Assembly: GCF_029323795.1 (NCBI RefSeq) | Contig: NZ_CP119758.1 | Location: 310,001 to 374,000 of the forward strand | Source: Zobellia alginiliquefaciens | GTDB taxonomy: Bacteria > Bacteroidota > Bacteroidia > Flavobacteriales > Flavobacteriaceae | DNA length: 64,000 bases | Reading direction: 5' to 3' | Part shown: positions 11,991-64,000 of the stretch, piece after piece | Position numbering within the stretch: the stretch's first letter is position 1 | Layout of the letters: each line of letters opens with the position of its first letter | The notes under the pieces: model-generated | Seen by the model: the letters and a program-made list of their open reading frames with translations, nothing else | The model's database searches: none | What the model was told of the DNA's origin: nothing | Position numbers and translations under genes: made by a program

Positions 11991-12035
11991 CATTCCACGA
12001 CATTCCACGGTCGCCCGCTAGAAAAGCGGGCGACC
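11991..12035. repeat. Tandem CATTCCACG pair followed by perfect 11-base hairpin
   Basis: CATTCCACG occurs twice in direct succession (11991 and 12001, each followed by one variable base). It runs into a perfect 11-base inverted repeat, GGTCGCCCGCT / AGCGGGCGACC, with a 5-base loop at 12020-12024. The stem is very GC-rich within AT-rich surroundings. It may be a terminator or a mobile-element boundary structure; position and composition are the only support. Confidence 0.55.
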
Positions 12036-12313
12036 ACTCCACATCGTGTAAAAAGCTTCCCTTTCTGACTCTTGGACATAATTCACAATTTTAACGCTCC
12101 ATTGCGTAACCCCTACCCGCTTCCCTGGGAAGGAAGACTTCATTCCGGAGTGAAAACCGCGAATTACGTCCGCTTTCTCAACGGAAAGACCTCGACTTGA
12201 TTTTCTTGAGCGGATTTTCGGCGAGGACTTCTTGAGCCCTCACTTGAAAATCCTGAAAAACCAAACCGCTGTCTTAAACATTTTAAGGGGTTTATAATGG
12301 CGGGAGCCTGTCT

Positions 12314-12337
12314 TGTTTTTCGGGACGGCGAAAAACA
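12314..12337. repeat. Nine-base hairpin TGTTTTTCG / CGAAAAACA
   Basis: A perfect 9-base inverted repeat with loop GGACGG, in the GC-richer noncoding leader upstream of ssb. No gene ends immediately before it, so it may be a structured regulatory or transfer-related element rather than a terminator. Confidence 0.45.
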
Positions 12338-12669
12338 GGTATGCCATAAGCCATTCTAATACGGTCCCATCCCCTCCTTTCGCTTAACTGCCGGTACGCT
12401 CAAATCACGAATAGGCACGAAAGAATGGCTAATGCCCTAATGGAACTTGTCAAGACTATACAAGTTTCAGGGTACAGATCGGGTATCTACCTCCTTGAAA
12501 ACCCAACGGTTTTACTACGTTGCAGACACTCCCGATTTGCACCCTGAAAGTCTGGACAAAACCCACTCCCTCCATTGTGCGGTGCACAGAAGAAAGCAAA
12601 CAAACACCCCTTAAAATTGAATTCAGCTGAAACCAAAAAGGGAAATATGAACCATTTAAATCTTCTATT

Positions 12670-13005
12670 ATGAGTACTATCAGAAATCACGTACAGTTGA
12701 TCGGAAACGTCGGACAGGAACCGACCATTACCAACCTTGAAAGTGGCAAAAAAGTCGCCCGCTTTTCATTCGCCACAAATGTCCATTATAAAGATAACAA
12801 GGGCGATAAAAAAACGGACACCGACTGGCACACCATTGTGTCTTGGGGCAAGACCGCCGAAATCATAGAAAAATATGTCGAGAAAGGCAAAGAGGTCGGG
12901 GTGGCCGGCAAACTGAAGACCCGTACCTATACCACGGACGATGGCAACCAACGTTATGTTACCGAAGTGGTAGCGGATGAAATCCTTCTATTGGGAAATA
13001 GGTAA
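12670..13005 (+). CDS. ssb: Single-stranded DNA-binding protein, mobile-element type
   Basis: OB-fold protein of 111 residues that coats single-stranded DNA during replication or conjugative transfer. The OB-fold core covers nearly the whole protein: NHVQLIGNVGQEPTI at the N-terminus, VARFSFATN, DTDWHTIVSWGKTAEI and VGVAGKLKTRTY. It lacks the long flexible tail and acidic DDxPF-type tip of housekeeping SSB, which is usual for the short versions on Bacteroidota mobile elements. It is the first gene of the mobilization block and is followed by a hairpin and the RadC-like gene. The ATG start at 12670 begins directly with the conserved first strand. Confidence 0.93.
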   Translation: MSTIRNHVQLIGNVGQEPTITNLESGKKVARFSFATNVHYKDNKGDKKTDTDWHTIVSWGKTAEIIEKYVEKGKEVGVAGKLKTRTYTTDDGNQRYVTEVVADEILLLGNR

Positions 13006-13016
13006 ACTATAAATCA

Positions 13017-13046
13017 GAGGGAATCCTAGAATGCTAGGGTTCCCTC
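13017..13046. terminator. Strong hairpin after ssb
   Basis: Thirteen-base stem (GAGGGAATCCTAG / CTAGGGTTCCCTC, one G-T wobble) with a 4-base loop, 11 bases after the ssb stop and 30 bases before radC. No T-run follows, so it may be an attenuator or an RNA 3'-end stabiliser rather than a full terminator. Confidence 0.55.
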
Positions 13047-13076
13047 ACTATTCACGACTTAAAAACATCTTAGCAT

Positions 13077-13526: not shown

Positions 13527-13574
13527 TCCTGTTAGTAGATAACGAATGTTAAAATAGCAAATTACACCAAAACG

Positions 13575-13599
13575 GCCCTTTTATTATGAAGGGCTTTTT
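13575..13599 (+). terminator. Rho-independent terminator after radC-like gene
   Basis: Stem GCCCTT / AAGGGC with an 8-base loop followed by a run of five T at 13595-13599, about 50 bases past the RadC-like stop. The shape is that of an intrinsic terminator for the plus strand. Confidence 0.7.
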
Positions 13600-13610
13600 C
13601 TATGTTCAAT

Positions 13611-13660: not shown

Positions 13661-13876
13661 GTCATCACCTCATTTTGATTTGACTTTCCTCGATGACCGT
13701 ATCCAAAAAAACAAAACATAGAAGGCAACTGACCTTGGTCAGCTTGTTCGAACGTTCGGGTCCCTGCGGAACGAAAAGGAGAAGCAAGAGGGTAACACGC
13801 TACGCGATGTTATATAATTTAACATACTGATAACCAGTTGTTTAAAATATAAAATATTTAAGTTGAAAAGGTACCC

Positions 13877-13930: not shown

Positions 13931-14470
13931 ATGAAGGATTCCTACCAAAAATATCATTTTTCGGCCATCAGCATCAAAAAGGAAGTGGCCCGGCGATTTC
14001 GGGCCTTTTCCAAATTGGTATCCGACTCCCATACCCACACCCTGGAAGCCATTATGGACTTTTTCGAGCGCAACGACCTTTTGCCAAATGATGACCTAGG
14101 TATAAAGAACAACAGGACCAACAAGCGCATCAATGCCCTTATTGCCATCCTTAAAAATATCGAGAAGCACCAGACCTTACCGACCAAAACAATGCTCGAT
14201 ACCCTATTCCACGAAATCGCTAAACAGGAAGACCAAGAAGGAAAGGAAGAAAATTTTGTTTTTGAAACTTCAGAACCCTTCTCCAGGGATACCGAAATGG
14301 AACACTACCGGAATCGATACGAGGAAATACAGCAACATCTGGGCAACTACAAAAACCGGATGCAGGAGCTCTTGGAAAGAATGACCTACGTAAAGGGAAC
14401 CTTCGGCAGGGGCTATTATAAACTGAATATGGACGAAAACGAGTTTGAACGATTTAATAATGAACTGTAA
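13931..14470 (+). CDS. BfmA/BtgA-family mobilization protein
   Basis: Small accessory mobilization protein of 179 residues, resembling the BfmA/BtgA proteins of Bacteroides mobilizable elements that bind the transfer origin and help the relaxase. The N-terminal part (ISIKKEVARRFRAFSKLVSDSHTHTLEAIMDFF, about residues 14-46) looks like a ribbon-helix-helix DNA-binding region. The C-terminal half (residues 105-160) is highly charged and probably a coiled coil. Its stop overlaps the next start by one base (TAATG), so it is translationally coupled to the DUF5712 gene. The candidate oriT hairpins and paired repeats lie directly upstream. Family assignment is from overall pattern and context. Confidence 0.82.
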   Translation: MKDSYQKYHFSAISIKKEVARRFRAFSKLVSDSHTHTLEAIMDFFERNDLLPNDDLGIKNNRTNKRINALIAILKNIEKHQTLPTKTMLDTLFHEIAKQEDQEGKEENFVFETSEPFSRDTEMEHYRNRYEEIQQHLGNYKNRMQELLERMTYVKGTFGRGYYKLNMDENEFERFNNEL

Positions 14471-15504
14471 TGTATATCACGATCACCGCCCAGAAAACTG
14501 ACGGGAACTACGCCCAGAGCGCAGTCGACTTCGTCAACTACCTTGAAAAGGAAAACGTAGGAAAAAACACGGACGACCTCGAACACTTCTTTGACCAGTA
14601 CGAAGAGGGAATATTGAGGCAAGAGGTAATAAGCGCCATAGATGGGAACACCGCCAAACTTAAAAAGTCCGAACCTAAATTCTATTCCATTACCTTAAAT
14701 CCCAGCGAAAGGGAACTGAAGACCATACAAAGTTCGCAAGAAGCGCTAAAGCGATACACCACGGAGGTAATGAAGGCCTATGCGTCATCGTTCAACAGGG
14801 AAATCAACGGCAGGCCCGTGACCATAGATGATATCAAATATTACGCTAAGATCGAGCACTATCGCACTTTTAAGGGCGGTGATAAAGAGATTATCGAAAA
14901 CCAACCCTATGCTACCCAAATACTTCAATTAAAACAAGAAATAAGACGTATCGAGCATGGGGAACTGCGCGGGAACATCTCGAAGCTACAACAGCGGATC
15001 GAGCAATTGGAACAGGAAGCACCACACCAAATCAACGGTATTCGCATCGTGCGGGGCACGTCAAAACCGGGACCACAGAGCCATATCCATATTATCGTCA
15101 GCCGAAAGGATGCCTCCAATCGCTACAGTCTTTCGCCAGGAAGCAAATACAGGGCTTCCGAGGTTCTGATGAACGGCAAGAAGGTGAAACGAGGTTTTGA
15201 TAGGGACGCTTTTTATAAAAGAGCGGAAAAGACCTACGATAAAATGTTCGGTTACAAACGAAACTACGTAGAAACCTACCGGGCAAGAAAAACCTTTCTA
15301 AAAAATCCGAAGCTGTATTTTTCTACGATTACAAAACTTCCCACCAATGAAAGGGCCTTGGCGTTTCAGCTGTTGCAAAGATCCGGGGTCGATACGGCTC
15401 TCTTGACTATCCCCACCAACAAGCTGCAACTGACCATGAAAGCGATACATATTTTGAAAAAGGGCATTGGCAAGGCCATTGAATCCGCCTCCATTGGGAT
15501 ATGA
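14470..15504 (+). CDS. DUF5712 mobilization protein, likely relaxase (BtgB/MobB-like)
   Basis: 344-residue protein of the DUF5712 type that accompanies BfmA/BtgA in Bacteroidota mobilizable elements. It opens with MYITITAQKTDGNYAQSAVDFVNYLE, and in the middle has PGPQSHIHIIVSRKD (about residues 199-213), an H-x-H motif of the sort that holds the metal in HUH-type relaxases. A glutamine- and leucine-rich coiled coil lies near residues 155-183, and a YLSTITKLP-like C-terminal segment follows. Known partners and the overlapping gene order suggest it nicks oriT and leads the strand to the coupling protein. The nicking tyrosine cannot be named from sequence. It overlaps its neighbours by 1 and 4 bases, so the three genes form one operon. 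Confidence 0.8.
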   Translation: MYITITAQKTDGNYAQSAVDFVNYLEKENVGKNTDDLEHFFDQYEEGILRQEVISAIDGNTAKLKKSEPKFYSITLNPSERELKTIQSSQEALKRYTTEVMKAYASSFNREINGRPVTIDDIKYYAKIEHYRTFKGGDKEIIENQPYATQILQLKQEIRRIEHGELRGNISKLQQRIEQLEQEAPHQINGIRIVRGTSKPGPQSHIHIIVSRKDASNRYSLSPGSKYRASEVLMNGKKVKRGFDRDAFYKRAEKTYDKMFGYKRNYVETYRARKTFLKNPKLYFSTITKLPTNERALAFQLLQRSGVDTALLTIPTNKLQLTMKAIHILKKGIGKAIESASIGI

Positions 15505-16937
15505 ACTGGCACGTTGAACATATTGTCCTTTACATACTGGTACCTATACTCTTTACCGCAACGGTACTGTATGCCATACTCAGTAGGGAAACGAACGCCC
15601 GGACCGACAAGAAATATAGGGTTCGGTTTAAATTGAGGTACGGAACCTTCAAGGTGGCCAATATCCGAAGGGGGGCCTCCATCATCGGTTCTGCAGGGAG
15701 CGGCAAGACCCAAAGCGTAGTCTATAATTTTTTACAACATTTCAGTGCCTACGGGTTTTGCGGGGTCATCCATGACTACAAGAACTTTGATCTCTCCGAA
15801 ATCGCCTATCCCCTGTTCAAGGAAGCAGGTATACGCTTCTATACGATAGCCATTGGGGACATCCATTATAGGGTCAATCCGATCGCTCCCAAATATTTGC
15901 CCAATGAGGAAAGCGTAAACGAAGTGTCCCGGGTACTCATGGAAAACCTATTGGAACAGGACCTGTCACAGAACAAGGGCAGCAATAAATTTTTCTCGGA
16001 TGCGGTAGAAGGGCTTTTAAGCGGGATGATATGGAAAATGAAAACTGCCTACCCGGAGTATTGCACGCTTCCACATATCATCGCATTTTTCCAGTCTGTA
16101 TCGACAAAAAAATTGGTAGCCTTCCTCAAATCCGACCTTACCGCCCGCAGTATGGCCAGTGCCTTTCTCAATGGTACCGAATCGGAAAAGCAGACCGCCG
16201 GGGTAAAAAGTACCCTGGCCAACGCCTTTAAAAAAATCAGTTCCCAAAAGATGTTCTTTGTACTTTCCAAGGACGAAGTGCCTCTGGACATCAACAACCC
16301 CGACCACCCGGCCATTATATCGTTGGTCAACGACCCAAAATACGATTCGGCCTACTCCCCTATTATCGCCATGGTAATGCATACCATAATAAAACAGATG
16401 AGTGTTCATGGCTGGAAGCCTTCCTTTCTTTTAATGGAAGAGGCCCCTACCCTGAAACTTCCCAATATGCACCGGATTCCGGCCACATTGCGTAGCTATG
16501 AGATTTGTACCATCTATGTCATGCAGGACAAGGTGCAGAATGATCTGTTGTACGGTGATAGGGCTAGCAAGGCGATATTGAGCAACCTCTCCTACCAGTT
16601 CTTTGGAAAAGTAAACGACCCGGACACCGCTAAATACTACGAACGTTTTTTCGAGATCATAAAAAAACCGACACACAGCATTAGCAAAAGTAGCGGGCTG
16701 AGTCTGGAAAGTAGGATTACAAAAGGGGAAAAAGAGGTATCGAAACGTAGGGCGGATACGTTCTTTCGTTTAAAACAAGGGGAGTTTATTGCTTTTGCGG
16801 ATGGTAAAGATCGTAAGCTGCGGTTTGCTCTGCAGAAAATAGTACGGACCAGGCCCAGAAAAAGAGTCGTCCATACCGCTGCAGAAATAAAGCTCGTGTA
16901 TGAAAGGTGCTACCTGGAAATTAGAAGGCTACTCTGA
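15501..16937 (+). CDS. TraG/VirD4-like type IV coupling ATPase
   Basis: Inner-membrane ATPase of 478 residues that would link the relaxase-DNA complex to a type IV secretion channel. One membrane segment is visible at about residues 8-27. A Walker A motif (GSAGSGKTQS) lies near residue 62, and a Walker B-like FLLMEEAPTL near residue 312. The C-terminal TraG/TraD-type region follows (ICTIYVMQDKVQNDLLYG). Its ATG overlaps the preceding stop (ATGA). No mating-pair-formation genes (TraB to TraQ type) occur in the window, so transfer would rely on a channel supplied elsewhere, as for mobilizable rather than self-transmissible elements. Confidence 0.9.
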   Translation: MNWHVEHIVLYILVPILFTATVLYAILSRETNARTDKKYRVRFKLRYGTFKVANIRRGASIIGSAGSGKTQSVVYNFLQHFSAYGFCGVIHDYKNFDLSEIAYPLFKEAGIRFYTIAIGDIHYRVNPIAPKYLPNEESVNEVSRVLMENLLEQDLSQNKGSNKFFSDAVEGLLSGMIWKMKTAYPEYCTLPHIIAFFQSVSTKKLVAFLKSDLTARSMASAFLNGTESEKQTAGVKSTLANAFKKISSQKMFFVLSKDEVPLDINNPDHPAIISLVNDPKYDSAYSPIIAMVMHTIIKQMSVHGWKPSFLLMEEAPTLKLPNMHRIPATLRSYEICTIYVMQDKVQNDLLYGDRASKAILSNLSYQFFGKVNDPDTAKYYERFFEIIKKPTHSISKSSGLSLESRITKGEKEVSKRRADTFFRLKQGEFIAFADGKDRKLRFALQKIVRTRPRKRVVHTAAEIKLVYERCYLEIRRLL

Positions 16938-24552: not shown

Positions 24553-25917
24553 TTAGTCAATAAAACTAAGAATATTCTCATGTACATGTTTTTTGTCTCT
24601 TATGGTATCAGTAAAAACACTCTTTAAATATAAGTTTTCAACAGGTAATTCTTTCTGACCTAAAACTCTAGAAATAAATTTGACATCTGTTGATTTTATA
24701 TTCTCTAAATGAATGTTCTTAATTGGTGTTAACCTTCTTTCATACGTTGGCACCAAATTACGCCATTGATATAATACATCTGTTTCAATACCAAGAACTC
24801 CTTTCTCAATTTTGCCAGCTTCAATATTTCTTACATGAACATTTTCAACATATCCCCCTCTACGTTCATTTGTTTTTATGAAAACTAAATGATTTAATTC
24901 TGCGCCATCCACTACCTTACAGCTATCCATAAAAATGTTTTCAATACCACCAGATAATTCACTTCCTATAGCTAATAGTTGATGTCCATTTTTTACGATA
25001 CAATTTTTAATTACAACATTTTTAGTAGGTGTATTCAAACGCCATGCATCCTGGTTGCGTCCAGATTTTAAGGCAATGGCATCATCCCCTTGGTCAAAAA
25101 CACAATTTTCAATTAGCATATTCTGAGACATTTCTGGGTCAACACCATCATTATTGTGTCCATGGGCGCGAACTTTCACGTTTTTGATTACAATATCTTT
25201 AGACAAAAAAGGATGGATTACCCAAAATGGACTGTCCGTGATGGTTATACCCTCCAATAAAATATTTTCAGACCTATTTAATTGAATAAATTGGGGGCGC
25301 AAATTAGAAGTATCATTTACCATTTGTCGTTCATTTACCGGGACACCCTTGGATGCCAAGTTGTATAAATGCTTTAAACTATTCATATGAGTTGAAGGAC
25401 GTTCAAACCATTTTTGCCAAACATCCATTTTCGCTTTCAATTTGCCTTTTCCAGTAATAGCGATGTTTTTACATTCATAAGCATAAATTAGCGGAGAGTA
25501 GTTATAACACTCCATACCTTCCCACGTGGTTTTAACAGGGGGTAAATAATCCTTAGGATCTTCAGAAAATAAAAGAACAGCTCCTTCGTTCAGATGCAAG
25601 TTCACATTACTTTTCAAATGAATTTTTTTCGTTAGCCATTCTCCTTTTGGTATTACGACGATTCCTCCCCCTATTTTATTTGCCTCATGAATCGCATTTG
25701 ATATAGCTTTTGAATTTGCGTTCTTATCTCCTTCAATTGCACCAAATTCAGTTATTAGTAACTCTTTACTATTACTAAAATCAGGAATTTTAATAGTAGG
25801 CATGTAAAAAGGGGCCTCAACTGTAATTTCTTTGATGTTCACCGATGTGGTTTCCGTATTGCAAGAATGAAAGGCTATTAAACAAATTAAGATTAAAAGT
25901 GCATTTGATTTTTTCAT
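24553..25917 (-). CDS. GH28 polygalacturonase-family lipoprotein
   Basis: 454-residue glycoside hydrolase family 28 protein, the family that cleaves galacturonan or rhamnogalacturonan backbones or releases terminal galacturonic acid. The N-terminus has a lipoprotein signal (LICLIAFHSC, Cys19), so the enzyme is probably membrane-anchored. The parallel beta-helix carries the GH28 catalytic set: NNDGVD (about 255-260), DQGDDAIALKSG (275-285, with the catalytic aspartates) and GHQLLAIGSE (311-320, with the conserved histidine), then IKTNERRGG. It is about two thirds identical by eye to the GH28 at 56882-58255. It is the most downstream gene of its minus-strand group, separated from DUF6807 by about 470 bases. 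Confidence 0.92.
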   Translation of the reverse strand: MKKSNALLILICLIAFHSCNTETTSVNIKEITVEAPFYMPTIKIPDFSNSKELLITEFGAIEGDKNANSKAISNAIHEANKIGGGIVVIPKGEWLTKKIHLKSNVNLHLNEGAVLLFSEDPKDYLPPVKTTWEGMECYNYSPLIYAYECKNIAITGKGKLKAKMDVWQKWFERPSTHMNSLKHLYNLASKGVPVNERQMVNDTSNLRPQFIQLNRSENILLEGITITDSPFWVIHPFLSKDIVIKNVKVRAHGHNNDGVDPEMSQNMLIENCVFDQGDDAIALKSGRNQDAWRLNTPTKNVVIKNCIVKNGHQLLAIGSELSGGIENIFMDSCKVVDGAELNHLVFIKTNERRGGYVENVHVRNIEAGKIEKGVLGIETDVLYQWRNLVPTYERRLTPIKNIHLENIKSTDVKFISRVLGQKELPVENLYLKSVFTDTIRDKKHVHENILSFID

Positions 25918-26388
25918 TATAATTCTGTATTTAATTGAAGATATCTAAACGATTCTCAACGAATAATTAAAAAATTTGGAAAACGGTAATCTACAAAAAA
26001 CTCAAGTTTATTTCTTTAATTGGTATCAAAGCAATATGACGTTAAAGTGTATTTTCATTAAAACACAACCTATTAAATTATTGCTCATCTCATTATTTAT
26101 TTACTATTTATTATGACTCTATCCCGATTTATGTCAGGTAAATTGATAAGGTCCATCTATTTAAATAATATCCCTATTCTGTATGCTGTTATTCTCTTTG
26201 GATAAATTTTCTCTGTCTATATTAAATTTATTTATGTCTGAGCATAAAGTTTTAGTATTCTTTCATTTGCTATGTATGTTTTAAACTTAACTGAAAACAA
26301 CTTTTTCATTATCCAAGTTTGACACTTTAAATAATATTGCCATCACTAAACTTTACGAATTGGAGCAACCAAGTTCAGTTTCCACCAT
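25918..26388. other. AT-rich gap between GH28 and DUF6807 genes
   Basis: About 470 AT-rich bases with no gene on either strand. It must contain the promoter of the GH28 gene; I find no exact TAnnTTTG with a well-spaced TTG and make no promoter call. Confidence 0.4.
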
Positions 26389-27330
26389 CTATTGTTTTCC
26401 ATATTCTGCATGTTCCGATTCAATATCCAAAAATTCCGAACCGCCTTCGTGTATAATCAAACGGTAGCGCAAAATGGTCGGTTGCGTTTGTGATAAGGGC
26501 ACAGCAATTGCTCCGGGATAAGGGTACACTGCATTTTGCATACTATTTTCGGATCGCAAAATCCAGCGATCTGAAAAACCAGAATTGTCTGGATGACAAA
26601 GAATACTCATTCCTGAAAGGGCGCCTTCCTTGCCAAATGATCCGGAAATATCCATCCAACCACCAGCTTCTATAGGCAAATTTTGAGGCCTTGTTTCGCC
26701 GGAAGAACTGGTAAACCCAATATCGTCCACCAACCGAACTCGTGTAGAAAAACCCCCATACCCTTTCTCATTTTCAGATCCACCTATGCGCATATCGGGT
26801 TCTAGGGCACGAATAGCTATTTGAACATCTATCTTTCGATATTGATTTTCTACGGGATACACTTTTATCGTGGTCAACTCCCTAACAACGGGCTTTTCGT
26901 TTCCGTAGTTATCTTTCCATTGAGAAGTTTTCCAAAATACCTCTGCCTGTATCGCCTTGGCCTTTCCTTCTACCTGAACCTCCTTGACCGACCGTACATC
27001 CCAACTGAAATCCTTAATATCCCATGCATCCCCTAGTTGGGTATCACCAATGTACAATTGATGCCATGCCCAAAAAATTCCTCTATGATGTAGATGATCT
27101 TTCGGAAAATCCTCTGTTAAAATTTGCCCGTCCAATGTATATAACGGGTGTATGTAATTAGATCTTCGATTAGTACCATTAAGTGATTTTTCAGCTATCT
27201 GATAAGTTAAAACACTGTCTTTATTCTCAACAAAATGGGCAGCATCCGCTTGAATTTCAACACTGATTTTTTGGGCGGTAATAACATTTGTCAAGTTGAC
27301 AAAACAGATAAAAATGAATATTCGAAACAT
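26389..27330 (-). CDS. DUF6807 family secreted protein (PmoA-like)
   Basis: 313-residue protein with a signal peptide ending near residue 19 (VITAQK). The family signature is plain: DFPKDHLHHRGIFWAWHQLYIG (about residues 75-97), followed by GDAWDIKDFSWDV and later GGFSTRVRLVDDIGF and GGWMDISGSF. DUF6807 proteins, sometimes annotated as PmoA-like, are common in plant- and algal-polysaccharide loci of Bacteroidota. Their biochemical role was not established to my knowledge, and the histidine-rich motif suggests metal or sugar binding. A copy of its 5' end, about 170 bases, sits as a dead fragment at 28580-28751. Confidence 0.82.
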   Translation of the reverse strand: MFRIFIFICFVNLTNVITAQKISVEIQADAAHFVENKDSVLTYQIAEKSLNGTNRRSNYIHPLYTLDGQILTEDFPKDHLHHRGIFWAWHQLYIGDTQLGDAWDIKDFSWDVRSVKEVQVEGKAKAIQAEVFWKTSQWKDNYGNEKPVVRELTTIKVYPVENQYRKIDVQIAIRALEPDMRIGGSENEKGYGGFSTRVRLVDDIGFTSSSGETRPQNLPIEAGGWMDISGSFGKEGALSGMSILCHPDNSGFSDRWILRSENSMQNAVYPYPGAIAVPLSQTQPTILRYRLIIHEGGSEFLDIESEHAEYGKQ

Positions 27331-27523
27331 ATCTTTTAAAATGAATTATTGGGTATCGTTGAGGAACTCTTTAGTCCTGTTATATAGTTACAATATGCTC
27401 ATACTTACTAGATTTAAAGTACAGTAAAACCTTATTTCTGTCCATAATTTATCTTGTAAATAAAATTGGTAAAATTAAACTGCATCCTATTTATGTTTAT
27501 ATTACCGATATCCGATTACAAGT

Positions 27524-28261
27524 TTATTTACTAATTAAATATTTTGTGACAGGAATTTCTAACTCCTTCATTTCCTCCACTGCTAAACCCGCTATCATAA
27601 ATGCTCCCAACTGGGATAAATGGGTATTATCATTTGCACCTTTTGGTCTTTGAGGATAAATCCCCGGTTCAAAATATAAATACAACTGTTTCGATTTCTC
27701 CGGACCCATTTTTTCAACCAATGTTTTGGTTTTGACTTCCATGTCTATAAAATAGACCTCATTCTCTTCGGCCACTTGTTGTACTGCAGGAATGTAATCT
27801 CCATGGGTGTCTGTTAAAGTTCCTGCCTCGTTAAAATGCCTTCGAACAATAGAGGTAAAAAGTATGGGAATAGCTCCCTTTTCTTCGGTCTCTTTAATAT
27901 ATTTTTCAAGATTTCTTTTGTAAGTGGTAAAAGGACGTGTATACCTTGCGGTATCGGGCTTACTATCATTATGGCCAAACTGTATAAAAATGTAATCTCC
28001 TTTTTTGACTTTAGAAATTACTTTTTCCCACCTACCCTCATCAATAAAACTCTTTGAACTACGTCCATTTTTTGCATGATTTTCAACTATAACTGAATCA
28101 TTAAAGAAATGTTGTAAGACCTGTCCCCAACCATATTCGGGAATTTCTTTTTTCTGTTTATTGGACATGGTCGAATCACCAATCATAAAAATGTGAACCG
28201 GGCGAAAATCACTTTTAGTAAACCCTAGACAAATCACTGAAAGGAAAATTAGTTTTTTCAT
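27524..28261 (-). CDS. Rhamnogalacturonan acetylesterase-like SGNH hydrolase (CE12 type)
   Basis: 245-residue secreted esterase expected to remove acetyl groups from rhamnogalacturonan or related pectic backbones so that depolymerases can act. The SGNH blocks are all visible: FMIGDSTMSN with the nucleophile S30 (block I), NGRSSKSF (block II), IQFGHNDSKP (block III) and GANDNTHLSQLGA with the catalytic D and H (block V). EYGWGQVLQ is characteristic of the CE12 group. A signal sequence covers about the first 18 residues. Its presence among GH28 and GH88/105 enzymes supports a galacturonic-acid-containing acetylated substrate. Confidence 0.9.
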   Translation of the reverse strand: MKKLIFLSVICLGFTKSDFRPVHIFMIGDSTMSNKQKKEIPEYGWGQVLQHFFNDSVIVENHAKNGRSSKSFIDEGRWEKVISKVKKGDYIFIQFGHNDSKPDTARYTRPFTTYKRNLEKYIKETEEKGAIPILFTSIVRRHFNEAGTLTDTHGDYIPAVQQVAEENEVYFIDMEVKTKTLVEKMGPEKSKQLYLYFEPGIYPQRPKGANDNTHLSQLGAFMIAGLAVEEMKELEIPVTKYLISK

Positions 28262-28354
28262 TTAATTATTTTTATCAATTATAATGGATTTCATAATCGG
28301 TCATTATGACTCTTACAGCACAAGGCACTGAATTAAGGTAACCAACTTTTCAAA

Positions 28355-28579
28355 TTATAAACCGTTTATCGTACTATCTGTTTGTCTTATAGATTTAACG
28401 TTTATAACATCATTATATAAAAAGTAAATAATTTCATTAAAACCTTCAGACATCGTTAAGCCGGCCCAACCGTGGTTGCCACCGTAAATGGAAGTGAAGT
28501 AATACGCTTCACCTAACCCCCTTAAACGCTCAGCTATAGGCCTTGAACCATAAAGCATCCAAAAGCCTTTATCTTTAAT
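28355..28579 (-). pseudogene. 3' fragment of the alpha/beta hydrolase gene (copy of 30412-30640)
   Basis: The translated piece DKGFWMLYGSRPIAERLRGLGE and onward to NDVINVKSIRQTD is nearly the same as the C-terminus of the esterase at 30412-31311 (DKGFWMLYGSKPIAERLRGLGE). It lacks the nucleophile elbow and the rest of the fold. Its 5' side is joined in frame to a DUF6807 fragment in a different frame, giving an accidental 81-codon frame. A dead duplicate produced by recombination. Confidence 0.88.
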
Positions 28580-28751
28580 TAGATCTTCGATAAGTACCAT
28601 TAAGCGATTTTTCTGCTATCTGATAATTTAAAATACTGTCTTTATTCTCCATAAAATAGGCAGCATCCCCTTGAATTACAAAGCTGATTTTTTGGGCGTT
28701 AATACCATTTGTCAAGTTGACAAAACAGATAACAATGAATATTCGAAACAT
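28580..28751 (-). pseudogene. 5' fragment of the DUF6807 gene (copy of 27160-27330)
   Basis: Starting at an ATG at 28751, the sequence gives MFRIFIVICFVNLTNG and continues to NQIAEKSLNGTYRRSN, close to the first 57 or so residues of the DUF6807 protein at 26389-27330, including about ten bases before the start codon. It then breaks into the esterase fragment. Nucleotide identity is near nine in ten by eye. No function expected. Confidence 0.88.
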
Positions 28752-28756
28752 ATCTT

Positions 28757-29056
28757 TTAAAAATTGAATATATGTGCCCCAAAAATAAAATCATGAGCAA
28801 CCTGTTTTACGGTTATCGCTGTTCCGGCAGGAAGCCCTTTGAGATTTAATACCGCATCAGCTTTTCTGTTTTCCTCAATATCTCGATCAATTTTTGCCTG
28901 AACTTTAGAGATCCACAATTTCCAGTAGGCAGCACTCATAACCGTGTCCTTTTGTGAAATTGTTACTCGTGTTTTCTCCGTCTCTATCCCGTTTGCATAT
29001 TGCGGGATTTGAAACGGACACTGTAATAGTAAAATGTAGATAATTTTCTGATTCAT
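28757..29056 (-). pseudogene. N-terminal fragment of a GH10-like glycosidase
   Basis: A 99-codon frame that looks like the start of a GH10-family (endo-beta-1,4-xylanase-type) protein: AAYWKLWISKVQAKIDRDIE, RKADAVLNLKGLPAGT and KQVAHDFIFGAHIFNF, the usual N-terminal module and first barrel strand. It stops right after AHIFNF, where the barrel should continue for about 300 residues, at the junction with the copied DUF6807 5' end. The joint lies in an A/T run (TTTTTAAAAGAT) shared by both parents. The family call is from memory of the motif, so moderate. Confidence 0.68.
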
Positions 29057-29137
29057 GGAAATTATTATCTTAAGATTTAATTAGCCACTCCAAAAAGGAG
29101 GATGCCCAGATTTAATTTCTTTATTGTTAAATGGACC

Positions 29138-30130
29138 TTATATAGGTTCATGCATCATTAATTCTTCTATAACATCAGTAACTATTTTATAAGGGTACTT
29201 ATGTACGAGGAAATAATGGTTGGCATTTATTTTTGGTTTCCATTGATTGTAACCATCCTCGTCAACTAAAAATTCACCAGGTCCACAAACATAAAAATAC
29301 TTCTCCGGATCCCTTATGGCACAAAGAACTGCTGTTTGATCCCACGATCTTCTATTTTCAGAGGGTTGTTCGCTATAAGTAGCTAAATTATAAGCATAAG
29401 CCCATGCAGCCGGGTTTTTAACCGACCCCGTTGCTGCTAATTTATTACCGGTCTTAATTGAATTTCCAATCTCAGCTCCGCTAAAAAGTATAGGAGTTGG
29501 CCAGTGATTGAACGTGTAAAAGGAAGCTTCTGAATGCTTATAAACATTATATTCACGCCCCTCTGGGAGGTACCCGGCCATCGCAACCAGTTTCTTTACC
29601 TTCTGGTTTACTAGCTCAATACCCGAGAGCGGAGAAAATTCATCGGGACCTGATTTTAGTAAATTTTCAAGATTTGTAGTAAATCCAACGGTAACAATTG
29701 TAATACTTTTGTCGGACTGAGATGATAAAACCTCTCGATATACTTTAGTCGCCGAAGGATAATTTTTCGAATGTTTAAGCTCAGGGGCGAATCTTACAAT
29801 AGTAGAATCATTCCAATTGTTTTTATGGATAAAATTCACGCCGTTTTTTTCAGGCACTCCTATGGGAATGTTCGGCTTATTAAAGTACCTATTAAAGAGT
29901 TCTATAGTAGGGGCAACACTTGGATGACTATTGCATGAAATAGTTGCTAAAATGTCACATTCACCACTATCTGCTAAAGCATGCAAAACAGCAATGGCTC
30001 CCACATCATCGTAATCTGGACCCATATCCGTATCAAAAATAACTTTAACGGGTTCTGGAGTCTTATTTTTTTCTGGTGTCGTGTTACATCCCACAACCAA
30101 AATGAGTAAAATGTAAAGTAATTGTTTCAT
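29138..30130 (-). CDS. Nucleoside hydrolase-like lipoprotein (IUNH fold)
   Basis: 330-residue protein with a lipoprotein signal (ILLILVVGC, Cys15) and the inosine-uridine nucleoside hydrolase fold. The calcium- and ribose-binding motif is present as VIFDTDMGPDYDDVGAIAVL (about residues 29-48), followed by ATISCNSHPSVAPTIE and WDQTAVLCAIRDPE near residue 265. In polysaccharide loci, secreted members of this fold are thought to act on glycan-derived rather than nucleoside substrates, but the reaction is not known. It lies between the shuffled fragments and the esterase gene on the same strand. The spacing of about 280 bases to the esterase suggests a separate promoter or a decayed gene between. 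Confidence 0.87.
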   Translation of the reverse strand: MKQLLYILLILVVGCNTTPEKNKTPEPVKVIFDTDMGPDYDDVGAIAVLHALADSGECDILATISCNSHPSVAPTIELFNRYFNKPNIPIGVPEKNGVNFIHKNNWNDSTIVRFAPELKHSKNYPSATKVYREVLSSQSDKSITIVTVGFTTNLENLLKSGPDEFSPLSGIELVNQKVKKLVAMAGYLPEGREYNVYKHSEASFYTFNHWPTPILFSGAEIGNSIKTGNKLAATGSVKNPAAWAYAYNLATYSEQPSENRRSWDQTAVLCAIRDPEKYFYVCGPGEFLVDEDGYNQWKPKINANHYFLVHKYPYKIVTDVIEELMMHEPI

Positions 30131-30411
30131 TGTATTTTATTTAATAATTACGGTTGGCTGCGTGTCAGCTAAATTGTTCGTTCCCTAACCCTCCTTTTAC
30201 TGAAGAAGGAATGGAATATTGAACTCAGTCTGGCCATTTGTTGCAATCTACTTCCGCTCACCAAGAACTTAGTCTAATTGAAAACTCTTCCCAAATTGTT
30301 TTTTATCAGTAATTTGTTTTTTTACACAAAAGTCTTGAATTTACAGATATCGCGACTCTTGTTTTTATATATCGTTGTAGAGCATATGGTCACATTTTCA
30401 TTCATTTTTAA

Positions 30412-31311
30412 TTATAGCTTATTTATCGTTCTATCTGTTTGTCTTAAAGATTTAACGTTTATAACATCATTATATAAAAAGTCAATAATTTCATTAAAAC
30501 CTTCAGACATCGATAAGCCGGCCCAACCGTGGTTGCCACCATAAATGGTCGTGAAGTGATACGCTTCACCTAACCCCCTTAAACGCTCAGCTATAGGCTT
30601 TGAACCATAGAGCATCCAAAAGCCTTTGTCTTTACTATCACAATAATGATGAGGGGCAATGTTATAGGGCACTAACTTATCTCCCGTTCCGTGAAAAAGT
30701 TGGGTTGGAACAGCCCTATTTTTATCTATTTTCGAAAGTGTTTTAATAGCTCCCGCCATGCTAATTATTCCTGCATATTTAAAATCTGAAGGTAGTATTT
30801 CATTCTCATAGTAGAATGCCATATTCAAAACCGTTTCTGCACCCGCACTCGATCCCGCTATGATTATTTTATTTGGGTCCACCCGAAATTTATTATCGTT
30901 GTTGAGTATAAACTTTACGGCTAAGCTAACGTCATAGGACGCTGAATCAATAGCTGCTATTTTCTTATCAGTGGGAACGTCGCAACTAAAACCAATATTT
31001 CTCATAGTTAGCCTGTAGGATACAGAAGCAACGGCATATCCCCGCTGAGCAAGTTTTGCAGCAAAACGAACAGCTTTGTCGCTATCTCTGTTACCACTAG
31101 AAAAACCACCTCCATGAACATAAACAATTAAGGGAATCTGGTCTCGATCGTCTCCTGCTACGTAATAATCAAATTGTAATGATTCATTTTTATCAGGACC
31201 ATAATTATAAGTGTATTTAGTGACTTTAGAAAAAACACTATCTAAATAAATGGTTTGAGCAGCTGTAAAATTTGTTGCCAAAACGAATATGACAATTATT
31301 AAATATTTCAT
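30412..31311 (-). CDS. Secreted alpha/beta hydrolase (carbohydrate esterase-like)
   Basis: 299-residue alpha/beta hydrolase with signal peptide (residues 1-18, ending FTAAQ). The oxyanion-hole motif VHGGGFSSGNRD is near residues 65-76, the nucleophile elbow IIAGSSAGAETVLNMA near residue 152, and the catalytic histidine likely in YGGNHGWAGL near 266. The HGGG plus GxSAG pattern is that of the hormone-sensitive-lipase/acetylesterase-like group, and the locus context suggests removal of acetyl or other ester groups from the glycan. Its last third is duplicated as a dead fragment at 28355-28579. Confidence 0.87.
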   Translation of the reverse strand: MKYLIIVIFVLATNFTAAQTIYLDSVFSKVTKYTYNYGPDKNESLQFDYYVAGDDRDQIPLIVYVHGGGFSSGNRDSDKAVRFAAKLAQRGYAVASVSYRLTMRNIGFSCDVPTDKKIAAIDSASYDVSLAVKFILNNDNKFRVDPNKIIIAGSSAGAETVLNMAFYYENEILPSDFKYAGIISMAGAIKTLSKIDKNRAVPTQLFHGTGDKLVPYNIAPHHYCDSKDKGFWMLYGSKPIAERLRGLGEAYHFTTIYGGNHGWAGLSMSEGFNEIIDFLYNDVINVKSLRQTDRTINKL

Positions 31312-31494
31312 CGTAATTATTTACTTTTTTATTTAACTATCCTCATTAAAGTCTTACTATTTTGTTTGAGATTAAATTGGTCTTGATTTCCATCTCGAAC
31401 GAAATGGCTTATCATTAATCTTACTTATCTCAAATAAGACCTCAAGAACTTAGAAAAAGCTTATTCGAATTTTAAAACATAATAAATTGAATTT

Positions 31495-32691
31495 CTAATT
31501 ATAATATTTTTCAAATTCATCTTTCCACTTTACTATCTTATTTTCATGTAAGGCATCCAGGCCCATTTGTACGGAAATTGCTGCCTTTGAACCACTAATA
31601 ATATCAGATTCTGGTGTTTTGTTTTCAATAATACTGTTTGCAAAATCGGTTAAAGCCTGTACTGAAGAATTTGCATGTTCAATATTAATCGGGATTCCCT
31701 TTCCCTTTGCCCATTGGACTGTAGCACCTGCAACTCCGTCTACCTCCCCTATTTCCTTTTTATCCGAATTTCCTTCTGGATAAAACCACGCCTTATCATA
31801 ATCTAAGATAATGGTTCCCTTATCCCCCAAAACTTTAATTTGATAATCATTCATGGAATTAGATGTTAAGCAAGTGAACTTGGCCTTAACTCCTTGGGGG
31901 TATGTATAAATCAAATGAATATTGTCAAAAGTTTCCCTTCCATCTTTCCAATAATCAACTCCGCCAGAACCTGTAACTTGCTCTGGTACAGAATCTAGAA
32001 CCCAATTAACAAAATCAATTTGATGAGAACAAAGTTCAGCCACTAACCCTCCTGAATACTCTTTATACATTCTCCAATTAACAATACGTTCTAATTTAGT
32101 ATCAACTACTGGTCTTCGCCAATCCCCATTTCGGTTCCACTGACATTCAAAGGCTGTAATATTTCCTACAGCTCCATTTTTTATAATGTCTACTACATGC
32201 GAATAAAGTCTGGAACTATGGTATTGATGACCAACTTGGAAAATTTTAGAGCAGTCTCTTTTTTTTAAAATTAAATTTTTAATCCCTTCATAACCTTTTG
32301 CCATAGTTTTTTCACCATAAACATGTTTATTGGCATCTATAGCATCAATTTCAATCGCGGAATGTGTATTAAATGGCGTTGCCACCAAAACAGCATCTAT
32401 TTCCTTATTATCTAATAAACCTCTGTAGTCAGAATACCCAATTACTTTTTTATCGGCACGGGCTATTCCATTCTCTAACCTGAATGGTAGAACATCACAA
32501 CAGGCCATCAAATTAAACTGAGAAATTTTATTTATCAACGGTATGAGTCCTCCTCCCCTGTCTCCCGTTCCGATTACACCTAAATTTATGATTTCATTTT
32601 TATTAAGGGAAAAAGAATTTATAGGTGATAAAGCTGCAATCGTACCTAATACACCTTTACTGGTACTACTAACAAATTTTCGTCTATTCAT
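31495..32691 (-). CDS. Gfo/Idh/MocA-family oxidoreductase, exported
   Basis: 398-residue NAD(P)-dependent sugar oxidoreductase-family protein. The N-terminus MNRRKFVSSTSKGVLGTIAAL has twin arginines and a hydrophobic stretch, a Tat-type signal, so it is probably exported folded with its cofactor. The Rossmann motif GVIGTGDRGGG is near residue 39, EKTMAKGYEG (the EKP-like active-site strand) near 132, and SHQIDFVNWVL supplies the conserved H-x-x-D-type pair. Some exported members cleave or modify glycosides by an oxidation-elimination route; substrate here is unknown. It lies downstream of SusD, after a hairpin. Confidence 0.9.
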   Translation of the reverse strand: MNRRKFVSSTSKGVLGTIAALSPINSFSLNKNEIINLGVIGTGDRGGGLIPLINKISQFNLMACCDVLPFRLENGIARADKKVIGYSDYRGLLDNKEIDAVLVATPFNTHSAIEIDAIDANKHVYGEKTMAKGYEGIKNLILKKRDCSKIFQVGHQYHSSRLYSHVVDIIKNGAVGNITAFECQWNRNGDWRRPVVDTKLERIVNWRMYKEYSGGLVAELCSHQIDFVNWVLDSVPEQVTGSGGVDYWKDGRETFDNIHLIYTYPQGVKAKFTCLTSNSMNDYQIKVLGDKGTIILDYDKAWFYPEGNSDKKEIGEVDGVAGATVQWAKGKGIPINIEHANSSVQALTDFANSIIENKTPESDIISGSKAAISVQMGLDALHENKIVKWKDEFEKYYN

Positions 32692-32910
32692 GACTATTAT
32701 AAATTATTTTTAAATTCAGATTCAAAGTGTCAGTTCGACCAATTCTTGGCCAATCAATTATATAATCCCAAAGTTTCATTTAATGTATTGCCATTACTAA
32801 ATGGAGTCAGCAATAACAGGAAACTTATAAATAATAGATTTTATAGTGATTAATAAGAGTTATTGGTCAACATGATAAAGATTATCTTATTTAACTATAA
32901 GTTAATAAGA

Positions 32911-32936
32911 ACAAGTTTGAAGTTTTTCAAACTTGT
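32911..32936 (-). terminator. Hairpin after susD of the second locus
   Basis: Perfect 10-base inverted repeat ACAAGTTTGA / TCAAACTTGT with a 6-base loop, about 20 bases past the SusD stop on the minus strand, followed by TTCTTATT. It could partly stop transcription so that SusCD are made in excess of the downstream enzymes. A similar hairpin follows the other SusD. Confidence 0.62.
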
Positions 32937-32953
32937 ACCATTATGCTTAATTG

Positions 32954-34606: not shown

Positions 34607-34618
34607 CTTTGTAATTTT

Positions 34619-38014: not shown

Positions 38015-38112
38015 CTATAAATCGGAGAATGTTACGAGCATTTTCCGGTTTTTTTTTAAGAGCGATCACATCTTAAAGTGTATTCTATTCTATGTCATAG
38101 GCGCGATTAAGA

Positions 38113-39279: not shown

Positions 39280-39412
39280 AACAAAATTATCAATTACATA
39301 AGTATGACCCCAATCTTATCACAATCCCTACATTTTACTAAGCTTTTTTTAAATTTTTCTGATATTAATTTTTTTTTACATAGCTTAACCAGCTTAATAT
39401 TACATATCCATT

Positions 39413-61131: not shown

Positions 61132-62524
61132 AGTGCTATCTATTTTTAAGAGTTTCGTTCTTTATATATTTATACATTATCACTAATTTGAGATTAAGAT
61201 TGATTATTAATTCCTTTGAATGGGTCCTAACTTCGGTCTAGCTTGCTTACCAAGAGTTAGCAATAGCTCATGATAGATTTAAAACTATGGAAAAACCTAC
61301 AACCTGTTTAATCCGAATACATTGCTATTGTAATTCATCTTAAATTAGATGGTTCCACACCTGTTTTTAAAATCTCAGGAATGGCTAACAATAAAACAGT
61401 TTCGTTGGCTAAATAACTTACTTTATATTCATTCGCTTTTAGCTATCTCAAAGTTATAATCAAACTTCCTTTATTCTATTACGAGTCATAAATGCAATAC
61501 ACTAACCTTTTCTTTAATTTTTTAACGATATCATTTTTATTTAAAGGAAAAACTGAGGATTACATATGACCCTTGACATTTGTTTTTCCTCTAATATGGA
61601 GTTTACTAGAAAATTATAATCTCGTTCTGCAATCTGTAAAAAAGACTCTATAAAAACGGAGCTGAGACATTCAGGATTAGGCTTCAAATAAACTCATCAG
61701 CAGGTCACACATAAAGCATATCTTAAAAACCGATCGGTCATTACTGGGTTTGGAAAGGGCCCCTAAACCGGAGAAGTCACAGTGCCCCGAAGATTCAACC
61801 CATAGACCGAAGTGCCTAGGCTGATCTTTAAAACATTCCCTTCTCATACAAAGAATCGATGGGATTCCTTATTTGCACCTGCACCCGTTCAAGTGAGCTT
61901 TCTTTGATCAAAACGAAGATGCAAGTAACACTAGCACGTGCTTCCGCTAAGTTGCTATTCCTTATTAGCTAGAATTTCTGAAATCAAGGATTCCATAGTT
62001 TTCATAACTACAGTATTTTAAGGTTATACCTACTCTATTTACAAGGTTTTCGGTTTCCCCTTTCGTTGCAACATTTTTAAGTATGAAAGACATTTAAATT
62101 AAGGCACGCATGCCTATTCCAGGTATCATCAGAGATTTTCAAAAAAGCATTTTGTTAATCGAAAAAAATCAAACGAGTTCCATGGAAATTCTTTGAATGT
62201 CCATATTTGATTAATATCTCATTCTGCCTTTATCGTCGTAAAAGCAATTTAGACTCTCAAAATAAAATTGAAGTATGGGTAGAGTTTTGAAATCCAAATT
62301 CCCTTTATATCTTATTTAAAGTACAAATACGGAGTTGTTAATCTCTCATTTACAAAATGCATCCATTTAGAGTCAATACTCTAAATGAAACTTGTGGAGT
62401 CAGAAAACCCAACAATGAAAATAAATTGTAAACGAAACTCTTATATTAGAAAAGGAGGGGGCCGGGAAAAGAGCTGATTTGCGGCAATAGTGCTTGAGAT
62501 AATAAAATTGTAGTTTTCAACTAT
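61132..62524. other. Long region without a recognisable gene
   Basis: About 1.4 kb of mainly AT-rich DNA upstream of the last sulfatase. It contains that gene's promoter somewhere near its start, but no exact promoter match was assigned. No convincing frame or hairpin with a T-run was seen. It may be decayed mobile-element DNA between the cargo and the integrase side. Confidence 0.4.
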
Positions 62525-62759
62525 CTATCTCTCTCTCTGAACAATTGGTTCTGTGTTTTCAATTGTGAAATCCTGCGAGTCTGGAGTAATGGCTGGAGTT
62601 AAATTATTTGTATTGATATGGATACACATAGCGTAATCTACTGTATGATTTTCTTCATTCGTATGAGAAAACACATGTAACCCTGCTGCCATTTTCGCAG
62701 TTAAGAAAAGGGCAAGGACGAGAAGGGTGATGCTATTTTTTAGACGACCATTTTTTCAT
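62525..62759 (-). pseudogene. Small membrane or secreted protein gene with a one-base frameshift
   Basis: From an ATG at 62759 the frame reads MKKWSSKK and then a stop. If one A is removed from the run of six A at about 62736-62741, the frame continues as KNSITLLVLALFLTAKMAAG and on to NLTPAITPDSQDFTIENTEP, ending at 62525-62527. A single membrane segment or signal of about 15 residues and an otherwise polar tail are seen. The sequence resembles small proteins often met in Flavobacteriia, of unknown function. The break lies in a homopolymer, so a sequencing error or slippage switching is possible. Confidence 0.68.
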
Positions 62760-63060
62760 CAAACACAGACCTACTAAAATATTCCAAATGTTGTTTTATT
62801 ATAGTCTAAATAAAAGTTAATGGTTATGGCTACTTATAGCACGTTCTAATTTCCAGGTTAAATAACGGGGCAATTGCTACTGAAAGCACCTGTAATTGTA
62901 TGGATAGTTATATCGTACAGAGTAAAACACTATATTAGGGAGCCTCATAAAATTGAACAGTTTATAAAATTTTTTTCACTAGGCAAAATTGACCCGGCCG
63001 TTTGAAACTAATGCCATGTATTACTAACACAATTAGATGGCTTCCTGCCTTTGGGCCCAT
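62760..63060. other. Noncoding region next to the integrase 3' end
   Basis: About 300 AT-rich bases with no gene. Attachment sites of integrative elements commonly lie near the integrase, but no repeated core matching another part of the window was recognised here. Confidence 0.35.
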
Positions 63061-64000
63061 TTAAACAATTTTCAAATGATCGTATGCCGTACCCTTGCCT
63101 TCTAATTCTTTTCTGGAATTGCCTTTCAACTTGCTCCTTAACTTCATCATATCCTTGCTGATTTTCTTTTCGATGACCCGGGCATATTTTTGGGTCGTGG
63201 ACAGTTTGGTATGGCCCAACATTTTGGAGACGGTCTCAATAGGAACATCGTTGAGAAGTGCAATGGTGGTTGCAAATGTATGACGCGCCACGTGAAAGGT
63301 CAGGTTCTTTTCGATATGGCAGAGCTTGGCTATCCTCTTTAGATATTGGTTGGTCTTTTGGTCGCTGAACATCCTTAAAAGAGTATAGTCATTCTCGATG
63401 GACGGATGATCGGCGTACTTGTCAAGGACGGCTTTTGCTTCTTCCAACAGTGGCAACCTGACAGGAGTATTCGATTTCTGGCGCCTGACTTTGATCCATT
63501 CCTGCCCATCTACCCCTTGTACGATATCCTTCTTGTTCAGGTTCCTTACTTCGATGTAACAAAGTCCCGTATAACAAGAAAAGACGAATACGTCCCTAAC
63601 CAGGCTCATACTTTTGTTGGGCAAGTGTATCGCTGCCATTGCGTCTAGCTCGAACTGCTCTAGATATGGACAGTCGAACTCTTCGAACCTAAGTTCGTAC
63701 AGCGCAAATGGATGTGCCTTGATCCAACCATGTTTAAAGGCCACGGTCATAAATTTCTGTAACCGTTCCATATGCTTCATTATTCCATTGTTGTTCAAGG
63801 GCCGGGACTTCTGCAAAGGACGGCAAGTGCGGAGATAGTGTTCAAATTTGACAATAAACGAATAATCGATTTGGGCCAGGTACACATCATCGGACTTAAA
63901 TTGCTTTTTGATAAAGCGCAAGAGGTACTTTTCTGTAGCACTATAGTTTTTGACGGTACCCGCTGCCAATTTTTTGAACTCGTTCTCCTTATGATATACT
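63061..64000 (-). CDS. Tyrosine recombinase/integrase (5' end beyond window)
   Basis: Site-specific recombinase of the phage-integrase fold, as used by Bacteroidota conjugative and mobilizable elements. The frame is open to the right edge (VYHKENEFKK before the TTG at 63969), so the N-terminal arm-binding domain lies outside. The SAM-like core-binding domain covers the first 110 or so visible residues (NYSATEKYLLRFI onward). The catalytic domain shows FHVARHTFATTIALL (H and Arg II), LGHTKLSTTQKYARV (H and the nucleophile tyrosine) and a lysine in VRRQKSNTP. The Arg I position (TGLCYIEVRNL) is not arginine directly after TGL; some relatives such as IntDOT also vary here. Its DNA is GC-richer than the cargo and resembles the mobilization block in that respect. 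Confidence 0.92.
   Translation of the reverse strand, partial: VYHKENEFKKLAAGTVKNYSATEKYLLRFIKKQFKSDDVYLAQIDYSFIVKFEHYLRTCRPLQKSRPLNNNGIMKHMERLQKFMTVAFKHGWIKAHPFALYELRFEEFDCPYLEQFELDAMAAIHLPNKSMSLVRDVFVFSCYTGLCYIEVRNLNKKDIVQGVDGQEWIKVRRQKSNTPVRLPLLEEAKAVLDKYADHPSIENDYTLLRMFSDQKTNQYLKRIAKLCHIEKNLTFHVARHTFATTIALLNDVPIETVSKMLGHTKLSTTQKYARVIEKKISKDMMKLRSKLKGNSRKELEGKGTAYDHLKIV

Follow-up and report, generated by a model that had tools for sequence, protein, structure and literature searches.

Introduction

The integrative mobilizable elements (IMEs) NBU1, NBU2, Tn4555 and Tn4399 of the Bacteroidetes are ~10–12 kb long. In the sections of PMC5704250 that deal with them, these elements are mobilized by integrative and conjugative elements (ICEs). 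Here, we describe a 118.3-kb island of Zobellia alginiliquefaciens that we read, with a probability of about 0.85, as one such IME: the window, i.e., the whole 64-kb stretch of DNA that was analyzed (G000:C1:310001-374000 of the complete 5,066,785-base chromosome, contig NZ_CP119758.1), is probably the inner part of this element, a fused composite inserted at the 3′ end of tRNA-Pro(GGG). Like NBU1, NBU2, Tn4555 and Tn4399, the island has its own integrase, relaxase and accessory mobilization protein and no recognized mating-pore genes, and it matches the BfmA/BtgA and MobB family models. It differs from them in its 118 kb, its four glycan loci, a VirD4-like coupling protein of its own, a single-stranded DNA-binding protein (SSB), RadC, the tRNA-Pro site and the fusion. 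In function it is an element of a known kind; its form is unusual in its great size, its many glycan loci and its fusion from two elements.

Two further kinds of described system are close to it. Tandem accretion of a cis-mobilizable element (CIME) and an IME at a tRNA 3′ end is treated, in the relevant parts of PMC5704250, for the tRNA-Lys island of Streptococcus agalactiae and for the ICESt1-related islands, and the chimerical internal attachment (att) site of the S. agalactiae tandem is described there as still recombining. The Zobellia island likewise appears to hold two adjoining elements at a single tRNA 3′ end; unlike in S. agalactiae, its internal att lies at a junction between a left end and integrase-coding sequence and is degraded (3 of 14 bases off), so that the outer att pair alone is whole. 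For Bacteroides, the portions of PMC13188876 that concern glycan loci on mobile elements report experimental transfer by mobilization of native elements. The Zobellia island shares with these the placement of glycan loci within a mobile element, and differs in that it is marine, bears several loci, has no recognized conjugation machinery and has sisters that share its ends and mobilization block and differ in cargo. Among the papers listed in our literature searches, none has a title or abstract that deals with this island or with glycan islands at tRNA-Pro genes of Zobellia.

The window had first been read from its sequence alone. That original prediction proposed a possible single mobilizable island of ~52 kb or more at window positions 12000–64000, with a transfer module on the left, an integrase on the right and two glycan loci between them, and pointed to flanking att repeats and an empty site in related genomes as evidence to look for. 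Below, positions up to 64000 are those of the window and six- or seven-digit positions those of the chromosome.

Results

An att pair with an empty site in a congener brackets the whole window

The right att site, attR, lies at tRNA-Pro(GGG) (374571–374645, minus strand, located by tRNA search), whose 3′ end faces the integrase and which begins 571 bases right of the window. The 14 bases of this tRNA 3′ end, GTCGGGATGACAGG, recur in the same orientation at 256287–256300 (attL, found by word match), so that the island starts 53.7 kb left of the window. The starts of the two words at 256287 and 374571 are 118,284 bases apart, and the entire window, down to the GH95 locus at its left margin, lies between them. 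No third copy matching at least 11 leading bases occurs within the 224 kb examined. Two 14-base matches to a 401-bp tRNA-region query, at 298778 and 359534, do not lie at a tRNA 3′ end and were discarded as chance. The att repeats that the original prediction had called for therefore exist, and both lie outside the window, which rules out the 52-kb segment as the whole element; its proposed bounds were too narrow, above all on the left.

Comparison among nine Zobellia genomes (G000, the window's own, to G008; G006 is Z. russellii) also revealed the empty site. Once the two flanks of the island in G000 (137 + 230 bases) are joined, they align to G005 in a single block of 325 columns with 88% identity, and the surroundings of attL are 91% identical over 110 columns to sequence next to the G005 tRNA. 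On the right side of the island, gene g107 (374712–375626) has a counterpart of at least 80% in all nine genomes; on the left side, g12 (255283–256086) has one in five, the other four having only a relative of 20–24%. In G005, g12 and g107 are 1.5 kb apart, with tRNA-Pro(GGG) between them and a 413-codon antiporter-like gene, read by eye and missing in G000, adjoining g12. In G008, g12 and the tRNA are 3.9 kb apart; in G004 and G002, they are separated by 46 kb and 118 kb, partly because the interval contains genes that in G000 are found on the left side of g12. G007 has a right end like that of G000 beside its tRNA (93% over 189 columns), where its contig stops. A site-specific att pair and an empty site in a relative are thus both present, as in an IME.

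A conserved mobilization block carries a candidate oriT

As predicted, mobilization genes lie at 12.7–16.9 kb of the window; they occupy the plus strand, from SSB to a coupling protein (12670–16937). The block begins with SSB (12670–13005) and a RadC-like gene (13077–13526), both recognized by Pfam/NCBIfam, and continues with a BfmA/BtgA-family mobilization accessory protein (13931..14470; NF041200, 94.7 bits, cut-off 24), a MobB-family relaxase (DUF5712; 14470..15504; NF041495, 396 bits, cut-off 200; PF18976), which is the one match of its kind in the genome, and a 478-aa TraG/VirD4-like, MobC-like coupling protein (15501..16937; PF12696, PF10412 and PF02534). The relaxase is found in three of the nine Zobellia genomes (G000, G005 and G006). 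Among eight relaxase loci, two of them identical over 15.6 kb, SSB adjoins the relaxase in all and RadC in seven; SSB-RadC-BfmA-MobB-MobC is kept as a unit in those seven, across several genera, and the eighth lacks RadC. Relatives of MobB, each below 60% identity, occur on 122 plasmid records.

The block also contains the candidate origin of transfer (oriT) that had been predicted. Its core on the plus strand at 13783..13811, picked out by its conservation beside the relaxase, is an imperfect inverted repeat, AGCAAGAGGGTAACACGC followed by 3 bases and GCGATGTT. With up to three mismatches, this core matches once in the window, against 0.06 expected. With up to two, it occurs as one exact copy near the relaxase in each of the three relaxase-bearing Zobellia genomes and in none of the six without a relaxase; a reversed-core control gave one match across all nine. 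Between radC and bfmA, the 18-base core followed by GCG-TGTT is present in all eight relaxase loci (one of which has one base of the 18-bp part altered), and the sequence around it diverges among them. Based on these comparisons, we regard the 18-bp core near the relaxase as a candidate oriT.

The integrase is full length and probably belongs with the block

A tyrosine integrase (PF00589/PF13102, minus strand) was expected at the right edge of the window and is found there, from 63061 to 64000, its full gene (373061–374347) encoding 428 aa. Alignment to relatives indicated that it is full length, with C-terminal HxxR, GH and Y motifs that we take to be the catalytic ones; it also contains a TGLCYIEV stretch, a likeness to IntDOT. 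Its own full-length integrase and its own relaxase above the NF041495 cut-off are both as in an IME. At E 1e-20, relatives of the integrase occur in four of the nine genomes: G000, G005, G006 and, 42% alike and beside the same tRNA, G001. Between the last sulfatase gene and the integrase, at 62027–62063, lies a DUF805b RNA motif (Rfam RF02914, 48.3 bits, gathering threshold 35.6).

The original prediction left open whether block and integrase belong to one element, and congeners show the same pairing. In G005, a counterpart of 322228–328916 (96.0% over 6703 columns, with AbiE) adjoins a truncated integrase at tRNA-Pro(TGG); in G006, a counterpart of 322070–326840 (82% over 4779 columns, without AbiE) adjoins a truncated integrase at tRNA-Pro(GGG), as judged from alignments of at least 250 columns. 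Integrase and right end of G005 are 92.4% identical to those of G000 over 1104 columns. An integrase was seen in two of the eight relaxase loci, those of Z. russellii and [Muricauda] okinawensis, and in none of the other six within at most 10 kb either side of the relaxase. In [Muricauda] okinawensis, a full-length relative (73% over 428 aa) lies 2.8 kb from the mobilization block, with a similar right end and att word, read by eye. Around the block, this locus is 100% identical to that of Allomuricauda aurea over 15,630 bases.

The island appears to be fused from two related elements

The left end of the island (150 columns) is present twice, at 256293 and at 266962 (266962–267109), with 87% identity. 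The second copy is joined directly to an integrase stump at 266698–266972, which corresponds to about the last 270 bases of the integrase gene (86% over 278 columns to 373050–373327) and is the only other relative of the integrase inside the island. The joint is a word common to left end and integrase gene, about ATGACAGGCTT; the internal att there reads TTCGATATGACAGG, which deviates at 3 of 14 bases. No further left end or att copy was found from 267.1 to 374.5 kb.

The simplest reading of this arrangement is a fused composite of two related elements. An older element of ~10.7 kb, with a SusCD/phosphatase locus, would lie between attL and the stump, and a second one of ~107.6 kb would start at the second left end. 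After tandem landing, recombination would have deleted the internal att together with the front part of the older integrase; the fusion may reflect either a deletion within a tandem or insertion into the integrase gene with later recombination between integrase copies. The junction coincides with a short word of the integrase gene that resembles att; this leaves the internal att degraded, and both elements should now move as one. The single-element claim of the original prediction thus holds insofar as one att pair with an empty site brackets block, glycan loci and integrase, with the amendment that this unit is a composite of two. No att pair bounding only one of these parts was seen.

Sister elements share ends and block and differ in cargo

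The left end is also found in G005, in G006 (two copies) and in G008, adjoining att words of the GGG or TGG type; in G006, the two are on contigs C32 and C45 and the tRNA is on C48. This count excludes two matches of 25–28 bases (E 0.002), at 978038 in G000 and in G001. In the related element of G005, left end and tRNA-Pro(TGG) are 155.4 kb apart, and the stretch between has 7 SusC, 7 SusD and 10 sulfatase stretches, compared with 5 SusC, 4 SusD and two merged sulfatase stretches (four sulfatase genes by Pfam) in G000; these are merged tblastn stretches of more than 1500 bases (SusC) or 700 bases (SusD, sulfatase), obtained by querying with proteins of the island itself. Alignments of at least 100 columns common to the two comprise the mobilization block, the ends, an IS3-like stretch and short SusC-like stretches, together with rhamnose-type and other genes that lie outside the island in G000; otherwise, little cargo is shared. 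The word GTCGGGGTGGCAGG in the ssb region of the G005 block has no end sequence adjoining and was ruled out as an att site.

The 96.0% identity of the mobilization block exceeds all core figures for G000 and G005, which suggests transfer after the species split. Right of tRNA-Pro(GGG), core identity is 86.6% over 58 kb and 82.2% over the nearest 3.8 kb; beside tRNA-Pro(TGG), it is 90.8% over 24.7 kb and 91.8% over 2.2 kb. These collinear blocks were used in place of the overall mean of 84.2% over 70,033 columns, which includes paralogous matches.

G002 carries a different, 69.6-kb element at tRNA-Pro(GGG), which makes this tRNA a hot spot. That element has a 24-bp att repeat and an integrase 25% alike (among the best two matches per genome), the sequence to the left of its att is similar to that next to the tRNA of G004, and tblastn detected in it no relatives of the island's SusC, SusD or sulfatases. 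The only strong BLAST match of the G000 tRNA region besides itself is a second tRNA-Pro, TGG, at 3504656. There, G000:C1:3504656-3504966 carries ~230 bp of the element's right-end sequence, with no integrase relative listed nearby; it is perhaps a decayed sister element. At tRNA-Pro(TGG) of G008, three att words lie within 16.5 kb together with a left end, and this genome has no integrase relative at E 1e-20; the region is perhaps a decayed tandem.

Four glycan loci and an AbiE pair make up the cargo

Pfam and PADLOC confirmed the two sigma-controlled glycan loci and the AbiE pair predicted between block and integrase. AbiEii nucleotidyltransferase (17082–17939; PF08843; PADLOC, 397 bits) adjoins AbiEi antitoxin (17936–18598; PADLOC, 251 bits; under the NCBIfam cut-off, 34 vs 150) on the minus strand, as in type IV toxin–antitoxin systems of the AbiE kind, and a small helix-turn-helix-like gene lies upstream (18788–19021). 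AbiE is inside the 6.7-kb block shared with G005 at 96% identity and absent from the matching G006 block, which ends at 16840. To its right on the plus strand are an orphan SusC-like gene (19788–22838; SusC-type domains by Pfam/NCBIfam), a 90-aa SusD-like stump (22853–23125; read by eye) and insertion sequence genes (23186–24318; IS3 transposase by Pfam/NCBIfam); a SusD partner seems to have been lost from this SusC, which is followed by the 90-codon stump and then the IS3 element.

Glycan locus 1 (24553..39988, minus strand; Pfam) comprises GH28, DUF6807, a GDSL esterase, a nucleoside-hydrolase-like gene, a BD-FAE esterase, Gfo/Idh/MocA, SusD, SusC and FecR, with an extracytoplasmic function (ECF) sigma gene on the plus strand. 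Locus 2 (40357 to ~56561, minus strand; Pfam) comprises GH88, DUF4886, a GMC oxidoreductase, a gluconate-dehydrogenase small subunit, three sulfatases, SusD, SusC and FecR, with an ECF sigma gene on the plus strand (55971–56561). Beyond the latter, up to 61131, Pfam identified a GH28, an esterase-like gene and a fourth sulfatase, which we assume to belong to locus 2. The two GH28 genes (24738–25815 and 57070–58147) are 72% identical in DNA, and locus 1 and the locus-2 region may share ancestry or have exchanged a GH28 gene. A 405-bp stretch at 28365–28769 is a chimera, half of it matching the 3′ portion of the BD-FAE esterase gene (30422–30634) at 95% and the other half the start of DUF6807 (27155–27346) at 91%, possibly a scar of duplication and deletion.

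The cargo had been described as two glycan loci; both are inside, and so are two others, giving four SusCD loci and the orphan SusC. The right part of the third lies within the att pair at 1..9892 on the minus strand, with the end of a SusC-like gene (to ~3236; similarity only), FecR (3337–4509), an ECF sigma gene on the plus strand (4817–5407), a broken GH95 copy (5513–7120) and an intact GH95 (7361–9892), FecR, sigma and GH95 being Pfam matches. The broken copy, directly downstream of the intact one, consists of two open pieces matched by Pfam and a third that was read. Left of the window, this locus continues with most of the SusC-like gene and a SusD-like gene (both by similarity only) and with a 1809-aa protein that has polysaccharide-lyase, CBM6 and type IX sorting domains by Pfam. 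The fourth, leftmost locus (257–266 kb) has SusCD with two phosphatases, one confirmed by family search; its SusC/SusD, FecR and sigma genes are named by similarity or reading.

The 19.6-kb core of loci 1 and 2 is whole in G000 only. Among the best 33 of 108 to 150 candidates per genome, the other eight Zobellia genomes have scattered stretches of 64–83%, the longest (1.7 kb, 70%) in G006, and conserved synteny of the loci without the element was accordingly not seen. The source of the loci was not found: across 397 genomes, with the best four candidates at most per genome, the locus-2 SusD had one match besides itself at E 1e-80, of 40% identity.

The compositional shift noted at the outset is real but mild, with 43–46% GC in the mobilization genes and 44% in the integrase against 29–44% in the glycan-locus genes; the chromosome right of the tRNA has 38–42% (4-kb steps). 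Because the orphan SusC and IS3 genes, at 46–50%, also sit inside the island, it is no marker of element edges.

No mating-pore genes are recognized

No tra genes were recognized among the annotated genes of the window, and the TIGR03783 model, which represents the TraG ATPase of Bacteroidetes conjugation, matches nothing in the whole G000 genome. Above cut-off, it is present in two of the nine Zobellia genomes (G003 and G007) and in none of 14 control genomes, five of which have matches. By this family, the island has no type IV secretion system (T4SS) with TraG ATPase of its own, as an ICE of the CTnDOT type would, and lacks a mating pore, as an IME does; other tra families were not searched for.

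Discussion

Based on these findings, we propose a plausible mechanism for movement of the island. First, the integrase would excise a circle through recombination of attL with attR. MobB would then nick at the core near window position 13783, and the MobC-like protein would pass the strand to a conjugation machine provided by another element; because the TIGR03783 TraG ATPase was not found in the genome, transfer would need such a helper. AbiE would stabilise the island.

Several observations weigh against reading the window as part of one mobile IME. In whole-genome BLAST with the tRNA region, attL is a weak match (17 bases at 94%, with E 3.3, among four in the range E 3–6), which takes its weight only from its place and the empty site. 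The att word of [Muricauda] okinawensis has no tRNA after it, nor is there one in the 21-kb stretch. The integrases of G005 and G006 were cut short by separate events and have unrelated sequence at the C-terminal end, so that it took deletions to bring block and integrase together there. Core identity to G005 varies by region (82–92%), and the 96% block thus suggests, and does not prove, recent transfer. The coupling protein scores 178 bits against NF041326, whose cut-off is 900, and is therefore called MobC-like only, and a single ATPase family was used to judge the T4SS absent. Finally, we infer excision and helper-driven transfer, as well as the order of events at the 266.96-kb fusion, from sequence.

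The alternative that best survives is a dead, domesticated island that formerly integrated at tRNA-Pro and has lost excision. The lack of the helper ATPase TIGR03783 in the genome, the truncated integrases of the two congeners and the broken genes among the cargo all fit it, whereas the G000 integrase is full length with its C-terminal motifs, the outer att words are identical over 14 bp and the relaxase and coupling genes are open; we therefore regard it as unlikely. Distinctly less probable is a row of several tandem islands at the hot spot, with glycan loci that came separately (e.g., by homologous recombination) and cannot move with the mobilization block, the att pair bracketing them by position only. 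Such a history would suit the different 69.6-kb element of G002 and the 42%-alike integrase of G001 at the same tRNA, the one accretion visible inside the island, and the IS3 element and SusD-like stump between AbiE and locus 1; against it, 267.1–374.5 kb holds no further left end or att copy, the integrase stump is the sole other relative of the integrase, and both surviving ends are of one family. Least probable of all is the remnant of a full CTnDOT-like ICE that has lost its transfer genes, as the TGLCYIEV stretch and the coupling protein might suggest: the SSB-RadC-BfmA-MobB-MobC unit is kept in seven of eight loci of several genera, the eighth without RadC, and no tra genes were recognized among the window's annotated genes.

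If the island is one composite IME, as we favor, it may represent a Zobellia family of large IMEs (118 and 155 kb) with only their ends, integrase and block in common, which would dock at tRNA-Pro GGG or TGG and act as interchangeable carriers of whole glycan loci. They would grow by tandem landing and then recombination at an att-like word in the older integrase, which would remove the internal att and lock the cargoes together. We put this forward tentatively, at somewhat less than even odds.

In marine Bacteroidota, the gain of whole seaweed-glycan loci has mostly been inferred from patchy distribution. A vehicle of this kind, with its ends defined, its empty site seen in a congener, a candidate oriT and a sister that carries other cargo, would make excision and helper-driven transfer of several loci at once directly testable, and the fused junction would offer a simple way for tandem islands to become single larger units.

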